From: Patescibacteria group bacterium
GTDB taxonomy: Bacteria; Patescibacteriota; Microgenomatia; UBA1406; GWC2-37-13
Direction of reading: 5' to 3'
DNA: 64,000 bases
NCBI GenBank assembly: GCA_026415975.1
Contig: JAOAFZ010000003.1
Span: forward strand, 1-64,000
In this document: piece after piece, positions 38,201 to 60,943 of the stretch
Layout of the letters: each line of letters begins with the position of its first letter
How positions within the stretch are numbered: the first letter of the stretch is position 1
Notes under the pieces: generated by a model
Databases searched by the model: none
What the model was told of the DNA's origin: nothing
Seen by the model: only the letters and a program-made list of their open reading frames with translations
Made by a program: the position numbers and the translations under genes

Positions 38201-38219
38201 TGGTATCATAAGAACAATG
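38201..38219 (+). promoter_or_regulatory. murE-like extended -10 promoter
   Basis: TGG-TATCAT (TATCAT 38204-38209) ends 7 nt before the ATG at 38217. Confidence 0.5.
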
Positions 38220-39434
38220 ATTCGTGCGCTGAAAAACCTCTATCACTTGATTGTGGCGTATATCGCGAATGTGATCTACCGCTGGCCGTCACACTCGATC
38301 CGGGTCATCGGCGTTACGGGGACTGATGGTAAAACTACAACGACTTCTCTTATCTACCACATATTACGCGAAAACGGGAGAACTGCTTCGATGGTCTCAA
38401 CGGTATATGCAAAAGTCGGAGATTCGGTCTACGATACCGGTTTTCACGTAAGTACGCCCCACAGTTTTACCGTGCAACGGTTTCTGCGCGAGGCGGTTGC
38501 GAACGGGGACGAGTTTTTCGTAATGGAGTCCACATCACATGCGCTAGACCAGAACAGAGTCTGGGGAGTCCGCTATTCGACATCGGTAATAACCAATATC
38601 ACGCACGAACATCTGGACTACCATAAAACGTACGAAAATTACGTAAAGGCCAAGACGAAGCTCCTACTGATGTCGAATACCCGCATCGTGAATCGGGAGG
38701 ACAAGTCATACCCACATATCCTGAAAATCATCGGCGATACCGTGATCACCTACGGGCTACAGGAAGGTGATGTTGTTATGGATATTGCAAAACGTCTTGG
38801 GCGTCCTCTTGCACATTTCAGCAAGTACAACTTCCTCGCTGCCTATTGCGTGTGTAAAGCAGAAGGATTAACTGAAGAGCAGATCTTTGCAGCAATGAAA
38901 ACCTTTGTTATGCCACCCGGGCGGATGGAAGTTATTTCCGAAAAGCCATTTACCGTGATTGTGGACTTTGCGCACACACCAAATTCTATAAAAGAAGCTC
39001 TCGAGGCAGTTCAGGAAACTTACATGGAGGAAGGTAAAAGACTCATTCATGTCTTTGGTTGTGCGGCAAGGCGAGACAGTTCAAAGCGTCCACTGATGGG
39101 CCGGGAAAGTGCATTGCGCGCTGACTTCGTGATTATTACTGAGGAAGACTATCGCGATGAAGATCCTGAAAAGATCGCACAGGAGATAGGAGCCGGTCTG
39201 GAGTCGGTCGGATTTACCCGGGTCGAACCGGAAGCATTCGGACATAAAAGGCGCACCTATACCGTTATTCACAATCGGCATGACGCGCTGGAAAAAGCAA
39301 TACAAATCGCCGAGCCGGGCGACGTGGTAATCAGCACGGGAAAAGGACACGAGAGAAGCCTGTGCCGCGGGAGCACCGAGTTCCCGTGGGACGAGCAAGA
39401 TACGCTTCGTAGATTAATAGCTGCATCATCCTGA
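38217..39434 (+). CDS. murE: MurE-like Mur ligase lacking the N-terminal domain
   Basis: This 405-residue ATP-dependent ligase probably adds the third residue to UDP-MurNAc-L-Ala-D-Glu. The P-loop IGVTGTDGKTTTTS begins near residue 33; in E. coli MurE (~495 residues) it is preceded by a ~90-residue UDP-binding domain, which is replaced here by one short helix (LYHLIVAYIANVIYRWPS). The lysine/DAP-selecting DNPR motif of MurE is changed to EDYR in ITEEDYRDEDPEKIAQEI. The third residue of the stem is therefore uncertain. The start at 38217 is fixed by its -10 box. Confidence 0.85.
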   Translation: MIRALKNLYHLIVAYIANVIYRWPSHSIRVIGVTGTDGKTTTTSLIYHILRENGRTASMVSTVYAKVGDSVYDTGFHVSTPHSFTVQRFLREAVANGDEFFVMESTSHALDQNRVWGVRYSTSVITNITHEHLDYHKTYENYVKAKTKLLLMSNTRIVNREDKSYPHILKIIGDTVITYGLQEGDVVMDIAKRLGRPLAHFSKYNFLAAYCVCKAEGLTEEQIFAAMKTFVMPPGRMEVISEKPFTVIVDFAHTPNSIKEALEAVQETYMEEGKRLIHVFGCAARRDSSKRPLMGRESALRADFVIITEEDYRDEDPEKIAQEIGAGLESVGFTRVEPEAFGHKRRTYTVIHNRHDALEKAIQIAEPGDVVISTGKGHERSLCRGSTEFPWDEQDTLRRLIAASS

Positions 39435-39436
39435 GT

Positions 39437-40168
39437 ATGTTCGATCTTGCATCATTTTCTTTATCGCTCCCACTGGAACGGGAAGAAGGGCGGTTCCGGT
39501 TCGGGTTTACCACAAAAGCATTTGGAGACGGTCGGGATCAGGATGTACGCGCGAAGCTACTGGCGCAAACCGGTGCAACAACACTGGTTGCGCCAAAACA
39601 AACACACGGGAGTGATGTTTGTGTTGTTGATACCGACGGCAATATCCCCGAAAACGGATGCGATGCACTGGTGACAAACCGTTCTGGTCTTCTTTTGACC
39701 GTGCTTACCGCGGACTGCGTCCCGATTATATACCTTGATCGCACCACGGGCGTTATTGGTGTTTCCCACCAAGGGTGGAGAGGTTCGCTTGCGCGGATGG
39801 CGCAGAAAACGGTAGAGGCCATGGTAAAAGCAGGGGCATCTGTCGCTGCAATAGAAGCATTTATTGGCCCGGCGATATCCGGCGAGGTGTACGACGTTAC
39901 AAAAGACCGTTATACCACATTCCGTAATGAATTTTTTCCCTATGCGCATCTTTTTGCCAAACACCGAGACGGGAAGTATTTCCTTGACCTTCCTGAACTG
40001 AATGTTCAGCAGTTACTCGAATCCGGACTCGGGGTGACGAATATTACAAGCTATCGCCGGTGCACCTATTCCGAACCGGATCAGTTTTTTTCCTACCGTC
40101 GTGATGCAAAAACAGAATTTGGAGAGATGCTGGCGTATGTGTGCATGAAAGCTGACACTACTTCTTAA
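39437..40168 (+). CDS. pgeF: peptidoglycan editing factor PgeF (YfiH/LACC1 family)
   Basis: This 243-residue DUF152/'polyphenol oxidase' family protein has KQTHGSDV, TADCVPIIYL and SHQGWRGSLA, which carry the metal-binding Cys/His residues. E. coli PgeF removes UDP-MurNAc-L-Ser made in error by MurC; human LACC1 is a purine nucleoside enzyme. Its position 2 nt after murE and before murC supports the editing role. Confidence 0.85.
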   Translation: MFDLASFSLSLPLEREEGRFRFGFTTKAFGDGRDQDVRAKLLAQTGATTLVAPKQTHGSDVCVVDTDGNIPENGCDALVTNRSGLLLTVLTADCVPIIYLDRTTGVIGVSHQGWRGSLARMAQKTVEAMVKAGASVAAIEAFIGPAISGEVYDVTKDRYTTFRNEFFPYAHLFAKHRDGKYFLDLPELNVQQLLESGLGVTNITSYRRCTYSEPDQFFSYRRDAKTEFGEMLAYVCMKADTTS

Positions 40169-45399: not shown

Positions 45400-46437
45400 A
45401 TGGAACTGCACCTTCTGGTAACCTTGCTTTCTTTCGCTGTCCATTTTTTTCTGATAGTACCCTTTATTAATATCCTGTACCGGATAAAGTTCCAGCGCGC
45501 AAAACAGGAAACCCGCGATGTGTTTGACAACCCTACACCGATATTTGACCGGTTTCACCAGCACAAGCATGGCACCCCTGTTGGTGGTGGAATTCTTATC
45601 GTAGCCCTGAGCACCATCCTGTTTGCTTTGAGCTTGACTACTTTCTCCATGATGGGCACACACATTACTTCAAACTATAATAATGTCCCCGGTGAGGTCT
45701 TTATTATATTTTTTACCTTTATCAGCTTTGCCCTGCTTGGTGTCTACGACGATCTTCATAAGATTCTCTTTTTGAAACGCACAAAATTCTTTGGTATGCG
45801 CATGCGTCATAAACTTATCATTATGACTGCTCTGGCTCTGGCTATCGGATACTGGCTCTACTCAACCCTGGGGATATCAATTCTGTACGTACCGTTATTG
45901 GGGGTTTTTGATATTGGAGTATGGTATGTTCTTTTCGCAGCGTTTGTCATTGTCGCCTTTGCCAATGCGGTAAACATTACCGATGGCCTTGATGGTCTTG
46001 CAAGCAGTTTGCTCATAGTTGCGCTTGCAGGATTCTGGGTAATCGCACGATCGATCATCGATGTTCCCACTTCGTTGTTTATCGCTATCTGGTTAGGAGG
46101 AATGCTTGCTTTTATGTACTTTAATGTGTATCCGGCACGGATCTTTATGGGAGATACCGGTGCATTGTCGTTTGGTGCGACGTTTGCAGTAATCGGTCTC
46201 ATTCTGGGAAAACCATTTGCGCTCCCTATCATCGGTGGAGTATTTGTCGTGGAAATTACCACATCGCTTTTGCAGTTATTGTATAAAAAATTTTACCGCA
46301 AAAAACTTTTCCCCGTTGCGCCCCTTCATCTCTGGCTTCAGTTGCGAGGATGGGAGGAGCCGAAAATTGTGATGCGGCTTCTTGTCTTTGCAATACTGTT
46401 TTCCCTTCTCGGTCTCATGATGGCCTTTACCCGGTAA
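45400..46437 (+). CDS. mraY: phospho-MurNAc-pentapeptide transferase MraY
   Basis: This 345-residue membrane enzyme with ~10 helices makes lipid I from UDP-MurNAc-peptide and undecaprenyl phosphate. Family motifs are HGTPVGGG, YDDLHKI, NAVNITDGLDGLA and MGDTGALSFG. The HHH motif of the last cytoplasmic loop (usually PLHHHFE) reads APLHLWLQLRGWEEPKIV, leaving one of three histidines. It lies between dgkA and murL, in a context that supports MraY and not WecA. Confidence 0.9.
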   Translation: MELHLLVTLLSFAVHFFLIVPFINILYRIKFQRAKQETRDVFDNPTPIFDRFHQHKHGTPVGGGILIVALSTILFALSLTTFSMMGTHITSNYNNVPGEVFIIFFTFISFALLGVYDDLHKILFLKRTKFFGMRMRHKLIIMTALALAIGYWLYSTLGISILYVPLLGVFDIGVWYVLFAAFVIVAFANAVNITDGLDGLASSLLIVALAGFWVIARSIIDVPTSLFIAIWLGGMLAFMYFNVYPARIFMGDTGALSFGATFAVIGLILGKPFALPIIGGVFVVEITTSLLQLLYKKFYRKKLFPVAPLHLWLQLRGWEEPKIVMRLLVFAILFSLLGLMMAFTR

Positions 46438-46438
46438 A

Positions 46439-46456
46439 TGGTATACTAGCGCTATG
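46439..46456 (+). promoter_or_regulatory. murL extended -10 promoter
   Basis: TGG-TATACT (TATACT 46442-46447) begins 5 nt after the mraY stop and ends 6 nt before the ATG at 46454. Confidence 0.65.
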
Positions 46457-47803
46457 CAGGCTAACCGCTTTTGCTTTTTGTCTAGCTCGGCTGATCAGAG
46501 TACCCGCACGATGCGGTTTGTCTATGAAACAGTTTTTTCGGATAATCCTCCGATTCAATTTACCGAGAGTATCCGTTTTCCCGAAAATGTTTCATTTGAA
46601 AAACTTCCCCCTCCGCTTCTCTCGAAACTTCGTTCTTCACTTCATCTAATGCTTGGAGTAAGTTATTGGAAAGCATTTGCAGCTCATGAAATCGACACGG
46701 GTGAGATCCAGCTTACCCCTGAGGAAGCAGACTTCTGGACTACACTGTATACCCGTGGTATGGGCGAATTTTATTATCAAAATGAACTGGATTTCCGTGA
46801 TTACTTACAGTTTCCATCTGTCCGAAGTGGCGGGAGGAATTATTACGAGCATACCCTTCAGAATCGTGCGCTAATCGGAATTGGTGGAGGAAAAGACTCG
46901 ATTGTAGCTGCAGAATTACTTCGGGCCGGGGGAATATCCCAAAGCGGACTCCAGATTGAAAATCATGGTCAGAGAAGCTCAACCGACGCAGTTATTGATG
47001 CCCTTGGTATCCCCGCAATAAAACTAGTTCGCACCCTGGATCCCCAGCTTAGCCGGTTGCCTGGAGCATATACTGGACATGTTCCCGTTTCGGCGATATA
47101 CGCACTACTTGGTGTAACTACTGCGCTTTTGATGGATTACCGGTGGGTAATTGTTGCCAATGAACAGAGTGCTAACGAGGGTACTGCCCGCTACCTTGGA
47201 GAGACGGTAAATCATCAGTGGAGTAAAAGCATCATCTTTGAAAGATTGTTTCGGACATATGTGAAGAACTTTCTCAGTCCGGATGTAGAGTATTTTTCGC
47301 TGCTTCGCCCATATAGTGAACTCTCTATTGTTTCAATGTTTGTGCGCTTCCCGCGTTATTTTCATGTTTTTACCAGCTGTAATCGAAATTTTCGCATGCA
47401 TTGTAGTACCGGTTCGGATTCCGGTGCGTTGTGGTGCGGGACGTGCGCAAAGTGTGCTTTCGCGTATCTCGTGCTGGCTGCATTTCTCGACAGAGAGACA
47501 GTCCGGAGCATATTTGGGAAGAATCTCCTGGCTGACGAAGCACTTGTGCCGTTATACCGTGAGCTTCTAGGACTCACCGAAAGAAAGCCCTTTGACTGCG
47601 TCGGTACTATTGATGAAGTTAAAGCGGCGTTTGCACTGGTTCTCCGGCGTGGAGAACATGATGATGCAAGTGGTATGAAGCTTTATAAAAACGAAGTTCT
47701 CGAGAAGGGCTTTGAACCCTCCCTGGCAATTCACCGGGCACTGCAGTGGCGTGATGACCATTGCATTCCGGAGATGTTACTTCGATTGCTTCCCCGTACA
47801 TGA
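46454..47803 (+). CDS. murL: UDP-MurNAc-L-Ala-L-Glu epimerase MurL
   Basis: This 449-residue protein matches MurL, first described in Xanthomonas, which uses ATP (to AMP and PPi) to convert UDP-MurNAc-L-Ala-L-Glu to the D-Glu form. A PP-loop, IGIGGGKDSIVAAELL (GGGKDS at 144-149), is visible, as are NEQSANEGT and the Cys knuckle LWCGTCAKCAFAYLVLAAF (~326-344). The gene overlaps the following murD by ATGA, the same pairing as in Xanthomonas (murL-murD2). The call is by motif and context. A diverged PP-loop enzyme with another substrate is possible but less likely here. Confidence 0.85.
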   Translation: MQANRFCFLSSSADQSTRTMRFVYETVFSDNPPIQFTESIRFPENVSFEKLPPPLLSKLRSSLHLMLGVSYWKAFAAHEIDTGEIQLTPEEADFWTTLYTRGMGEFYYQNELDFRDYLQFPSVRSGGRNYYEHTLQNRALIGIGGGKDSIVAAELLRAGGISQSGLQIENHGQRSSTDAVIDALGIPAIKLVRTLDPQLSRLPGAYTGHVPVSAIYALLGVTTALLMDYRWVIVANEQSANEGTARYLGETVNHQWSKSIIFERLFRTYVKNFLSPDVEYFSLLRPYSELSIVSMFVRFPRYFHVFTSCNRNFRMHCSTGSDSGALWCGTCAKCAFAYLVLAAFLDRETVRSIFGKNLLADEALVPLYRELLGLTERKPFDCVGTIDEVKAAFALVLRRGEHDDASGMKLYKNEVLEKGFEPSLAIHRALQWRDDHCIPEMLLRLLPRT

Positions 47804-49071
47804 AGCTGGAAGATCTTCGAGGAAAAAAAATCCTTATTGTCGGTTATGGCCGTGAAGGTCAGGCTACCGAAGTATTTCTTCGCGAGTACGTGCCGGATTG
47901 CACCATAGGCATTGCTGATGCTACCAGAGATCCTGATTACCTTAAGATGCAAGATAGCTATGATGTGGCAATACGCTCCCCGGGTGTACCAAAACGTCTT
48001 ATGCGAATACGATACACAACCGCGACGAATATTTTCTTTGCTTTGGAACCCGGATTTACCATCGGGATAACCGGAACCAAAGGGAAGAGCACTACAGCAT
48101 CTCTGGTACACCACTTTTTAAGGGCAGGAGGAGTAGATTCAGTTCTCGCAGGAAACATAGGAAAGCCGGTACTTGAAGCGTGGATGGAACACCGGAATAA
48201 GCGTGTACAATATGTACTCGAACTATCCAGCTATATGCTTGATGACTTTGAGCACGCACCGGATGCAGCATTGACCGTTTCGCTCTATCAGGATCATATT
48301 GATTATCACGGCTCATGTGAAGCCTACTACGAAGCAAAACACAACCTAGTACGTTTTATGAAGAGGGGATTATATGTATATAACCCGCGCTTTCCGGAAT
48401 TCGTGAGATGGGCGCAAGAAGTACAGTGCCGGGCGCTCCCTTACGATGATTCGATAGAAATCGGGATGAGCGGGAATCCGCTTCTGGGAGAACATAATCT
48501 GGAGAATATACGCGGAGCGGCGACGCTGGCAGTACACCAGGGTATTCCTGCGGAAACTATCCGCAATTCACTGAAAACATTTCGCCCACTCCCGCACCGA
48601 CTACAGAATATTGGTACGTATCAGGGAATAACATTCTACGATGATGCAATCTCTACCACTCCCGAGTCCACCATAGCGGCATTACGATCGCTGAAAAGAG
48701 TAGACTGTTTGTTTCTTGGCGGCGCCGATCGCGGATATGACTTCAGGCCTCTGGTAGAAGAGATCTGTAAGCGGAATATCAGCATTCTTGTCTTCTTCCC
48801 CGACACCGGAACCAGAATCCATGCTATGCTGAAAGGACGGGGATTCGCCTTCCGGTCAATATTGACCAGTGGAATGGAGGAAGCAGTCCGGTTCGCCTAT
48901 GATACCTGTGAACCAGGCTCCGTTGTTCTTCTCTCAACCGCATCCCCCAGTTACAGCCTCTGGAAAAATTTTGAGGAGAAAGGCACAGAATACCAGAGAT
49001 TGGTCCGTGCATATGATCAGAAAACCAAAGTCGCTCCGGAAGACGCCGAAAACAAGAATTCCCCCGGGTGA
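47800..49071 (+). CDS. murD2: MurD2-type UDP-MurNAc-L-alanine--glutamate ligase
   Basis: This 423-residue Mur ligase has the N-terminal KKILIVGYGREGQATEVFL, the P-loop ITGTKGKSTTASLVHH, LELSSYMLDD (MurD-type), QDHIDYHGS and LFLGGADRGYDFRPL. In the MurL pathway MurD2 adds L-Glu, which MurL then inverts. The 4-nt overlap with murL (47800-47803) supports this; by sequence alone a D-Glu-adding MurD cannot be excluded. The start at 47800 excludes 13 residues overlapping murL. Confidence 0.88.
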   Translation: MKLEDLRGKKILIVGYGREGQATEVFLREYVPDCTIGIADATRDPDYLKMQDSYDVAIRSPGVPKRLMRIRYTTATNIFFALEPGFTIGITGTKGKSTTASLVHHFLRAGGVDSVLAGNIGKPVLEAWMEHRNKRVQYVLELSSYMLDDFEHAPDAALTVSLYQDHIDYHGSCEAYYEAKHNLVRFMKRGLYVYNPRFPEFVRWAQEVQCRALPYDDSIEIGMSGNPLLGEHNLENIRGAATLAVHQGIPAETIRNSLKTFRPLPHRLQNIGTYQGITFYDDAISTTPESTIAALRSLKRVDCLFLGGADRGYDFRPLVEEICKRNISILVFFPDTGTRIHAMLKGRGFAFRSILTSGMEEAVRFAYDTCEPGSVVLLSTASPSYSLWKNFEEKGTEYQRLVRAYDQKTKVAPEDAENKNSPG

Positions 49072-50197
49072 TCCAGCATCCCTTTCTCCGGTATCGGGAA
49101 AGCGGTCAGAGCAGGTTCGCCACACGGGCAGTTTCAGCGGTCTTTTTATTATCCCGCTTCTTGTTTCGATTGTGGGACTTTTTTTTGTCTACGAGGCTTC
49201 GTCTATACTCAGTCTTGATAAAACAGGAGATTCTTTCCATTATCTTAAGCTCCAGTTGGTCTGGATAACAGCCGGATTTGTATTTATGATTATCGTTTCT
49301 TTCCTGGATTATCATTTCTGGTCCAGAATAGCATTTTTTCTTATGGTCCTCTCTATAGTCCTTCTGGTGATCGTACTCATTCCTGCTATCGGAAAAGTAG
49401 GGGGCGGTGCGCGGAGCTGGATTGATCTGGGACCCTTTAACCTGCAGCCAACAGAACTTGCCAAGTTCGCAACAATTCTCTATCTTGCATCTTGGCTGGT
49501 TCAGCGTGAAGTTAAGAAGTTCTCCACATTTCTTATTCTTTTGAGCCTATTGTTGTTTTTAATTATTCTCCAACCCGATATTGGGACTGCGATAGTCATC
49601 TTCAGTCTCGGAGTTATGATCTATTTTCTCGCAGGCAAGGATATCTATAAACTTCTCATTTTTGTTCCCCTGGGAATTGCGGCATTTGTCGGGCTCATTA
49701 CCGCGGCTCCATACCGTTTTAACCGGCTAATTGCATTTATGAACCCGCAGATAGATCCGCAAGGAATATCGTTTCATATCAACCAGATTCTAATTTCTCT
49801 CTCCAGTGGAAACGTCTTTGGTAAGGGGTTCGGCGCATCGCGTCAGAAATACCTGTTCCTCCCGGAGGCACACACCGATTCAGTTTTTGCAATTATCGGC
49901 GAAGAGCTTGGCTTCGTGGGTGCAGCTACACTGGTGATAATTTATATGATGCTTATGTATCTTCTGTACCGACTCTATTGTTCTACGAATGATCGTTTCG
50001 GAAGAGCGCTCGCAGGGGGTGTTTTCGTATATTTCGGTTTGCAGATTATTGTAAATCTGGGGGGGATGGTCGCCCTTATGCCGCTCACCGGCGTTCCACT
50101 GCCTTTTATTTCCTACGGAGGGTCTCATATAGTCATCTCTTTTATCCTCATGGGAATTGCCCTGAACATCGCACGGCAGAATGCCCGGGAGGGGTAG
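49013..50197 (+). CDS. ftsW: SEDS glycosyltransferase FtsW
   Basis: This 394-residue membrane protein has ~10 helices and polymerises lipid II at the septum with FtsI. A ~45-residue basic cytoplasmic N-terminus precedes the first helix. Signature segments are GGGARSWIDLGPFNLQPTEL, PEAHTDSVFAIIGEELGF (catalytic Asp loop) and TGVPLPFISYGGSH. The ATG at 49013 overlaps murD2 by 59 nt; I see no later start before the helix. Confidence 0.93.
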   Translation: MIRKPKSLRKTPKTRIPPGDPASLSPVSGKRSEQVRHTGSFSGLFIIPLLVSIVGLFFVYEASSILSLDKTGDSFHYLKLQLVWITAGFVFMIIVSFLDYHFWSRIAFFLMVLSIVLLVIVLIPAIGKVGGGARSWIDLGPFNLQPTELAKFATILYLASWLVQREVKKFSTFLILLSLLLFLIILQPDIGTAIVIFSLGVMIYFLAGKDIYKLLIFVPLGIAAFVGLITAAPYRFNRLIAFMNPQIDPQGISFHINQILISLSSGNVFGKGFGASRQKYLFLPEAHTDSVFAIIGEELGFVGAATLVIIYMMLMYLLYRLYCSTNDRFGRALAGGVFVYFGLQIIVNLGGMVALMPLTGVPLPFISYGGSHIVISFILMGIALNIARQNAREG

Positions 50198-53340: not shown

Positions 53341-53362
53341 TGATATACTACCTGTACCTATG
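53341..53362 (+). promoter_or_regulatory. ftsZ extended -10 promoter
   Basis: TGA-TATACT (TATACT 53344-53349) ends 10 nt before the ATG at 53360, giving a leader of at most a few nt. Confidence 0.6.
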
Positions 53363-60934: not shown

Positions 60935-60943
60935 TGCTATACT
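60935..60943 (+). promoter_or_regulatory. tRNA-Val extended -10 promoter
   Basis: TGC-TATACT (TATACT 60938-60943), with a weak TTCAAC at 60915-60920 seventeen nt upstream. The start would fall ~5 nt before the tRNA, so the precursor 5' leader is very short. Confidence 0.6.

Follow-up and report, generated by a model that had tools for sequence, protein, structure and literature searches.

D-glutamate (D-Glu) is nearly universal in peptidoglycan, and the glutamate racemase MurI is usually assumed to be its source. Where, then, does D-Glu come from in a bacterium that builds a cell wall and carries no MurI? This question is raised by a 64,000-nucleotide stretch of DNA from a Patescibacteria group bacterium (contig JAOAFZ010000003.1; the whole stretch analysed, here called the window), in which a gene for a protein with a PP-loop motif stands immediately 5' of murD within the dcw cluster, between mraY and ftsW. 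The sequence-only reading of this locus had proposed the MurL–MurD2 route, in which MurD would attach L-Glu first and MurL would then invert the attached glutamate to give D-Glu for the cell wall. This interpretation is very probably right, and we put the probability that the gene pair is the MurL–MurD2 route and replaces MurI in this patescibacterium at roughly 0.88. The case was built computationally, from the homology and pairing of the two genes, the absence of MurI and DapF, the mutual exclusion of MurL and MurI across genomes, a specificity residue in MurD and the predicted PP-loop fold of MurL.

Both reading frames were found where the sequence-only reading had placed them (Table 1), together with the ATGA at 47800-47803 in which the start codon of murD overlaps the TGA of murL. 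The gene order in the window is an FtsI-type penicillin-binding protein gene, murE, pgeF, murC, murB, murA, yvcK, mraY, murL, murD, ftsW, murG and ftsA. Set against the E. coli order mraY-murD-ftsW-murG, the window has mraY-murL-murD-ftsW-murG, so that murD keeps its usual place and murL is inserted in front of it, again as had been claimed. Elsewhere in the cluster, the gene for the peptidoglycan editing factor PgeF (39437-40168) is flanked by murE and murC, and MurE (38217-39434) matches the models for the middle and C-terminal Mur ligase domains only, with no match to the N-terminal domain model.

Table 1. Coordinates of the features discussed (window positions except where a contig is given).
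Feature	Position	Strand	Remarks
mraY	45400..46437	+	5' neighbour of murL; TIGR00445, 179 bits
Candidate extended -10, TGGTATACT	46439..46447	+	7 nt 5' of the murL ATG, just past the mraY stop
murL	46454..47803	+	449 aa; NF041275 match; TGA stop at 47801-47803
GGGKDS PP-loop, proposed ATP phosphate-binding site	46883..46900	+	MurL residues 144-149
C309-x18-C328-x2-C331-x2-C334, proposed QueC-type zinc site	47378..47455	+	four Cys invariant
murD, putative murD2-type UDP-MurNAc-L-Ala:glutamate ligase gene	47800..49071	+	TIGR01087, 251 bits; ATG at 47800-47802
ftsW	49013..50197	+	3' neighbour, overlapping the murD 3' end; TIGR02614, 327 bits
TGnTATAmT before long-ORF ATGs	2931, 21171(-), 30372, 34920(-), 46439, 53341		distance to ATG 7-11 nt
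Class IV aminotransferase L002	L002:1405-2235 (contig G000:C5)	-	276 aa; IlvE or D-transaminase type

An extended -10 element of its own had also been claimed for the pair. A -35/-10 consensus scanner does not list the element, because no matching -35 accompanies it; the motif itself is present, enriched and well placed. The window contains 10 copies of TGnTATAmT where 2.95 would be expected, a count that none of 100 shuffles reached, and six of the ten sites lie 7-11 nt 5' of an ATG that opens a frame of 150 aa or more (P about 8e-10, the expected share of such positions being 1.3%). The site at 53341 precedes ftsZ, and a further one, at 60935, precedes a tRNA-like sequence. These sites resemble extended -10 promoters that would give transcripts with hardly any leader. 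Their excess and placement make a short-leader or leaderless murL promoter credible, and an extended -10 promoter for murL-murD is a reasonable reading of the motif.

The proposed identity of the first gene can be examined with family models. The NCBIfam MurL model NF041275 matches the window protein over residues 3-445 (344 bits, E 1e-102). This model is a Xanthomonadales-only equivalog with a curated cut-off of 700 bits, a score reached by none of the 62 matching Patescibacteria, and the window protein is accordingly placed in the wider family, outside the narrow Xanthomonadales equivalog. It is 31-45% identical to the 25 other Patescibacterial MurLs of a 26-member alignment, and about 33-39% identical to proteins from proteobacterial loci of Dyella, Rhodanobacter, Lysobacter and Devosia, genera listed as holding the MurL pathway (PMC8788868). 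Its partner, the only MurD in the genome, scores above the TIGR01087 cut-off of 212 bits. The full-length MurL match and this MurD assignment bear out the pairing that had been recognized, namely that of the Xanthomonas murL-murD2 genes. The same two families are adjacent, with no MurI, in Xanthomonas oryzae (XOO_1319/XOO_1320), Stenotrophomonas, Micromonospora and Salinispora; unlike these pairs, the present one belongs to a patescibacterium and sits in a dcw cluster behind a putative extended -10 of its own, and its MurL shares about 36% identity with the proteobacterial proteins.

The two motifs that first drew attention to MurL were GGGKDS and WCGTCAKC, the latter at residues 327-334. Their key residues are invariant among 26 MurL homologues, which all carry GGGK, S149 and Cys 309, 328, 331 and 334, with D148 nearly so; NGHxP and NHQ-x2-KS are further conserved stretches. 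No Pfam family was above threshold in a search with the window MurL, none, PP-loop families included, passed its cut-off in a scan of the 26 MurLs, and a PDB sequence search with MurL returned no matches.

Other sources of D-Glu were sought in the genome to which the window belongs (1.31 Mb in 10 contigs, 96.6% complete, so that about 3% may be missing). Family searches of this genome found no MurI, no member of the Asp/Glu racemase superfamily even at E 10, and no DapF. The last was looked for as a possible hidden racemase, since in Chlamydia DapF has glutamate racemase activity (PMC5885031).

A survey of 380 Patescibacteria genomes shows how far this arrangement extends. MurL was counted as strong at E < 1e-30, and weak partial matches to the MurI model (E 1e-5 to 1e-15), which occur in some MurL genomes, were not scored as MurI. 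On this basis MurL is present in 58 genomes, MurI in 115 and both in none, where 17.6 would be expected (Fisher p 1.3e-10); among the 274 MurD-bearing genomes the exclusion has p 3e-15. Because related genomes are not independent, the family-level view counts more than these genome-level values. Twelve families hold MurL genomes as well as MurI genomes, never with both genes in one genome, and the window's own family is among them, its other sampled member (G156) having MurI and no MurL. MurD is adjacent to MurL or fused with it in 53 of the 58 MurL genomes, including all of the first 30 loci. The fusions are single frames of 730-907 aa in which MurL is followed by MurD (e.g., L023 and L027), and 25 of them are contained in our MurD alignment. 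Neither MurL nor a strong MurI is found in 108 of the 274 MurD-bearing genomes, which means that Patescibacteria must have further ways of obtaining D-Glu.

Beyond this sample, a scan of an 84,980-species collection found at least 581 relatives of MurL. The best 80 of these belong to Roizman-, Moran-, Staskawicz-, Levy-, Peri-, Gottesman-, Sacchari- and Gracilibacteria, to alpha- and gammaproteobacteria and, in a few cases, to Bacteroidetes MAGs. The proteobacterial proteins occupy a few places within a far wider Patescibacterial spread in a quick MurL tree. Three genomes of the window's class (G178, G199 and G167) have MurLs that are identical to those in Microgenomates, Gottesmanbacteria and Beckwithbacteria records, which makes Microgenomatia the most likely class of the window. 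Together, these data show that the MurL–MurD route is widespread in Patescibacteria, a major holder of the pathway, and that it replaces MurI there. No report of MurL in Patescibacteria was found by a literature search with most subscription journals outside its reach.

Whether the window MurD is suited to L-Glu can be judged from its specificity residues. In MurD2 of X. oryzae, E197 and R358 set the specificity for L-Glu, and replacing both, by D and K, gives a D-Glu ligase; the E197D mutant of the Xanthomonas enzyme already has an altered stereospecificity (PMC8788868). Positions 358 and 197 of the X. oryzae protein correspond to positions 348 and 182 of E. coli MurD. At E. coli positions K348, K319, A414 and D182, the window MurD has Arg, Ile, Pro and Asp, respectively. 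It therefore resembles X. oryzae MurD2 in the Arg at the R358 position and the Pro at the P433 position and differs from it in having Asp in place of Glu197; the Ile at K319 and the Pro at A414 are common to most MurL partners. Compared with the canonical system of MurI and MurD, the MurD fold is shared, MurI is absent, and Arg replaces Lys at 348.

Position 348 largely sets MurL-partnered MurDs apart from the rest. Arg348 occurs in 82 of 88 MurL-partnered Patescibacterial MurDs, in all 30 proteobacterial and all four Bacteroidetes partners of MurL, and in each of the 25 MurL–MurD fusions. MurDs from MurI genomes have Lys348 in 29 of 30 cases and Arg348 in one, and those sampled from genomes with neither MurI nor MurL have Lys348 throughout (20/20, with Arg348 in 0/20). 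The Arg in the window MurD, the lack of MurI and DapF in its genome and the absence of any genome with both genes among the 380 surveyed all agree with the earlier claim that the pair stands in for MurI. The Bacteroidetes examples (L113, L131, L148 and L153) are MAGs with MurL and an Arg348 MurD, from a phylum that the reviews consulted do not count among the holders of the pathway.

The 197 position gives a different picture. The window MurD has Asp here, as in E. coli, where a MurD2 would have Glu, and this residue counts against L-Glu specificity. Asp is also found at this position in 23 of the 88 MurL partners and in five of the 25 fusions, all five with Arg348, and Glu is found in 11 of 30 MurI-type MurDs. 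Since Asp and Glu vary in both groups, the site does not separate them in Patescibacteria and was dropped as a diagnostic.

Some MurL-adjacent MurDs depart from the rule, and Arg348 is absent from six of the 88 in Patescibacteria. In a Saccharibacteria-like subgroup (L029, L038, L047, L050 and others), murD precedes murL, and four of 11 MurDs lack Arg348. At another locus (L026, genome G353), MurL adjoins a Lys348 MurD of the type found in MurI relatives of its family, possibly the result of a recent swap. A quick MurD tree, made with the five diagnostic columns masked, places the window MurD in a starred 17-row set composed exclusively of MurL partners, and the MurD of the family relative G156 groups with the MurI-type MurDs. 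The tree requires at least six changes between Arg and Lys at position 348. This suggests that the window's family either exchanged the whole pair or retuned its MurD on the arrival of MurL.

MurL has been described in reviews as an epimerase without known domains (PMC8788868, PMC5808125). An AlphaFold2 model of the window protein, made with the alignment of 26 homologues, has a mean pLDDT of 92.9 and a pTM of 0.93. The top solved structures found with it by Foldseek include the QueC-like Cap9 (probability 1.00, E 2.7e-4, TM by target 0.68), MnmA, TtuA and QueC (probability 1.00, TM by target 0.65), with the matches restricted to the HUP domain of MurL and TM by query at or below 0.31. The MurL sequence profile matches the PP-loop of TtuA (E 8.5e-5). 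An hhalign comparison with E. coli QueC aligned the P-loop alone (probability 2.7%), so the case for a likeness to QueC is limited to fold and motif; the Pfam QueC model PF06508 has no match among the 26 MurLs at E 10.

The motif in question combines a QueC-type, GGxDS-like P-loop with C(x)nCxxCxxC, and both parts are present in MurL. The family zinc motif of QueC is C-x8-C-x2-C-x2-C, with C-x19-CGxC variants in QueC-like defence proteins (PMC13329287). E. coli QueC has C188-x8-C197-x2-C200-x2-C203, the first spacing being 18 in MurL against the canonical 8, and the Cys set of MurL is proposed to form a zinc site as well. MurL also has an additional beta-rich N-terminal domain, at about residues 1-120, and differs from QueC in its substrate and outcome. 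From the model, MurL is predicted to be a PP-loop ATP enzyme with a QueC-like fold, which, with the full-length family match, is the outcome of the structural comparison that the sequence-only reading had proposed for this frame.

A fold of this kind would explain the ATP-to-AMP chemistry of the enzyme. MurL uses one ATP with release of AMP, and the authors who discovered it suggested an acyl-adenylate (PMC8788868). QueC and Cap9 carry out ATP-dependent chemistry at a carboxylate, and the same is proposed here for MurL, which would adenylate the alpha-carboxylate of the peptide, rendering the alpha proton acidic and allowing inversion at the alpha-carbon. Hydrolysis after inversion would make the reaction one-way. 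The window MurL presumably forms such an acyl-adenylate, with a base in the protein moving the proton. By homology to the assayed enzymes of Xanthomonas, Micromonospora and Salinispora, L-Glu is the probable substrate in this organism and epimerisation the probable outcome.

Other explanations must be weighed against this route. D-Glu could be made from 2-oxoglutarate by an aminotransferase, with MurD an ordinary D-Glu ligase and MurL serving another role. The genome has two class IV aminotransferases, one clearly IlvE and the other L002, which among solved structures is closest to a predicted D-alanine aminotransferase and could draw D-Ala from an alanine racemase homologue. L002 scores much the same on the D-amino-acid transaminase model (119 bits, cut-off 277) as on IlvE (121 bits), far below both cut-offs. 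A search for a D-amino-acid transaminase, the other half of the check suggested earlier, thus returned no model match above cut-off and left L002 as a weak candidate source. Its orthologues are patchy, occurring in MurI genomes, in MurL genomes, in genomes with neither and in one without MurD (G273), so L002 does not track the need for D-Glu. The Arg348 switch, the MurL–MurD fusions and the exclusion of MurI would all be left unexplained, and we consider this explanation unlikely.

Patescibacteria are often host-dependent, and the many MurD-bearing genomes without MurL and MurI could be taken to mean that D-Glu or muropeptides are obtained from a host cell, the pair being a relic or having a recycling function. 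Against this, the murL and murD frames are intact, the key motifs invariant and the dcw cluster full, and MurD carries the L-Glu-type Arg; possible scavengers look different, since the sampled MurDs of genomes with neither gene uniformly have Lys348. Dependence on a host is, to our minds, even less probable than the aminotransferase. The similarity of MurL to QueC, Cap9, TtuA and MnmA in structure and profile might instead point to a sulfur- or amide-transferring PP-loop enzyme that is a chance neighbour of murD. This we regard as the least probable of all, as the similarity is confined to the HUP domain and reaches no Pfam PP-loop cut-off, whereas the MurL model covers the whole length of the protein and linkage to MurD, fusions included, is common to the assayed family.

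The MurL–MurD2 route itself is not new, having been described chiefly in relatives of Xanthomonas and in a small number of other bacteria. What appears to be unreported in the literature searched is how far it extends in Patescibacteria, along with the exclusion of MurI, the fusions and the PP-loop/QueC-like fold; the use of a QueC-like fold to adenylate a peptide alpha-carboxylate for inversion is likewise not described there. On balance, we favor a broader picture in which Patescibacteria would have two principal D-Glu systems, MurL–MurD2 being one of them. It would have changed places with MurI repeatedly, and its two enzymes would often be joined in a single protein that carries out both steps and hands the L-Glu dipeptide over from the ligase to the epimerase, with MurL a QueC-like PP-loop protein adenylating the alpha-carboxylate for inversion of the alpha-carbon. 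A large uncultured radiation thus has MurI or MurL, never both in our sample, and because residue 348 of MurD largely tells MurL genomes from MurI genomes, sequence data allow a guess at where D-Glu comes from. Assigning MurL a PP-loop/QueC-like fold offers a testable, fold-based mechanism for the MurL epimerase, and the natural MurL–MurD fusions are single proteins suited to demonstrating both steps together.
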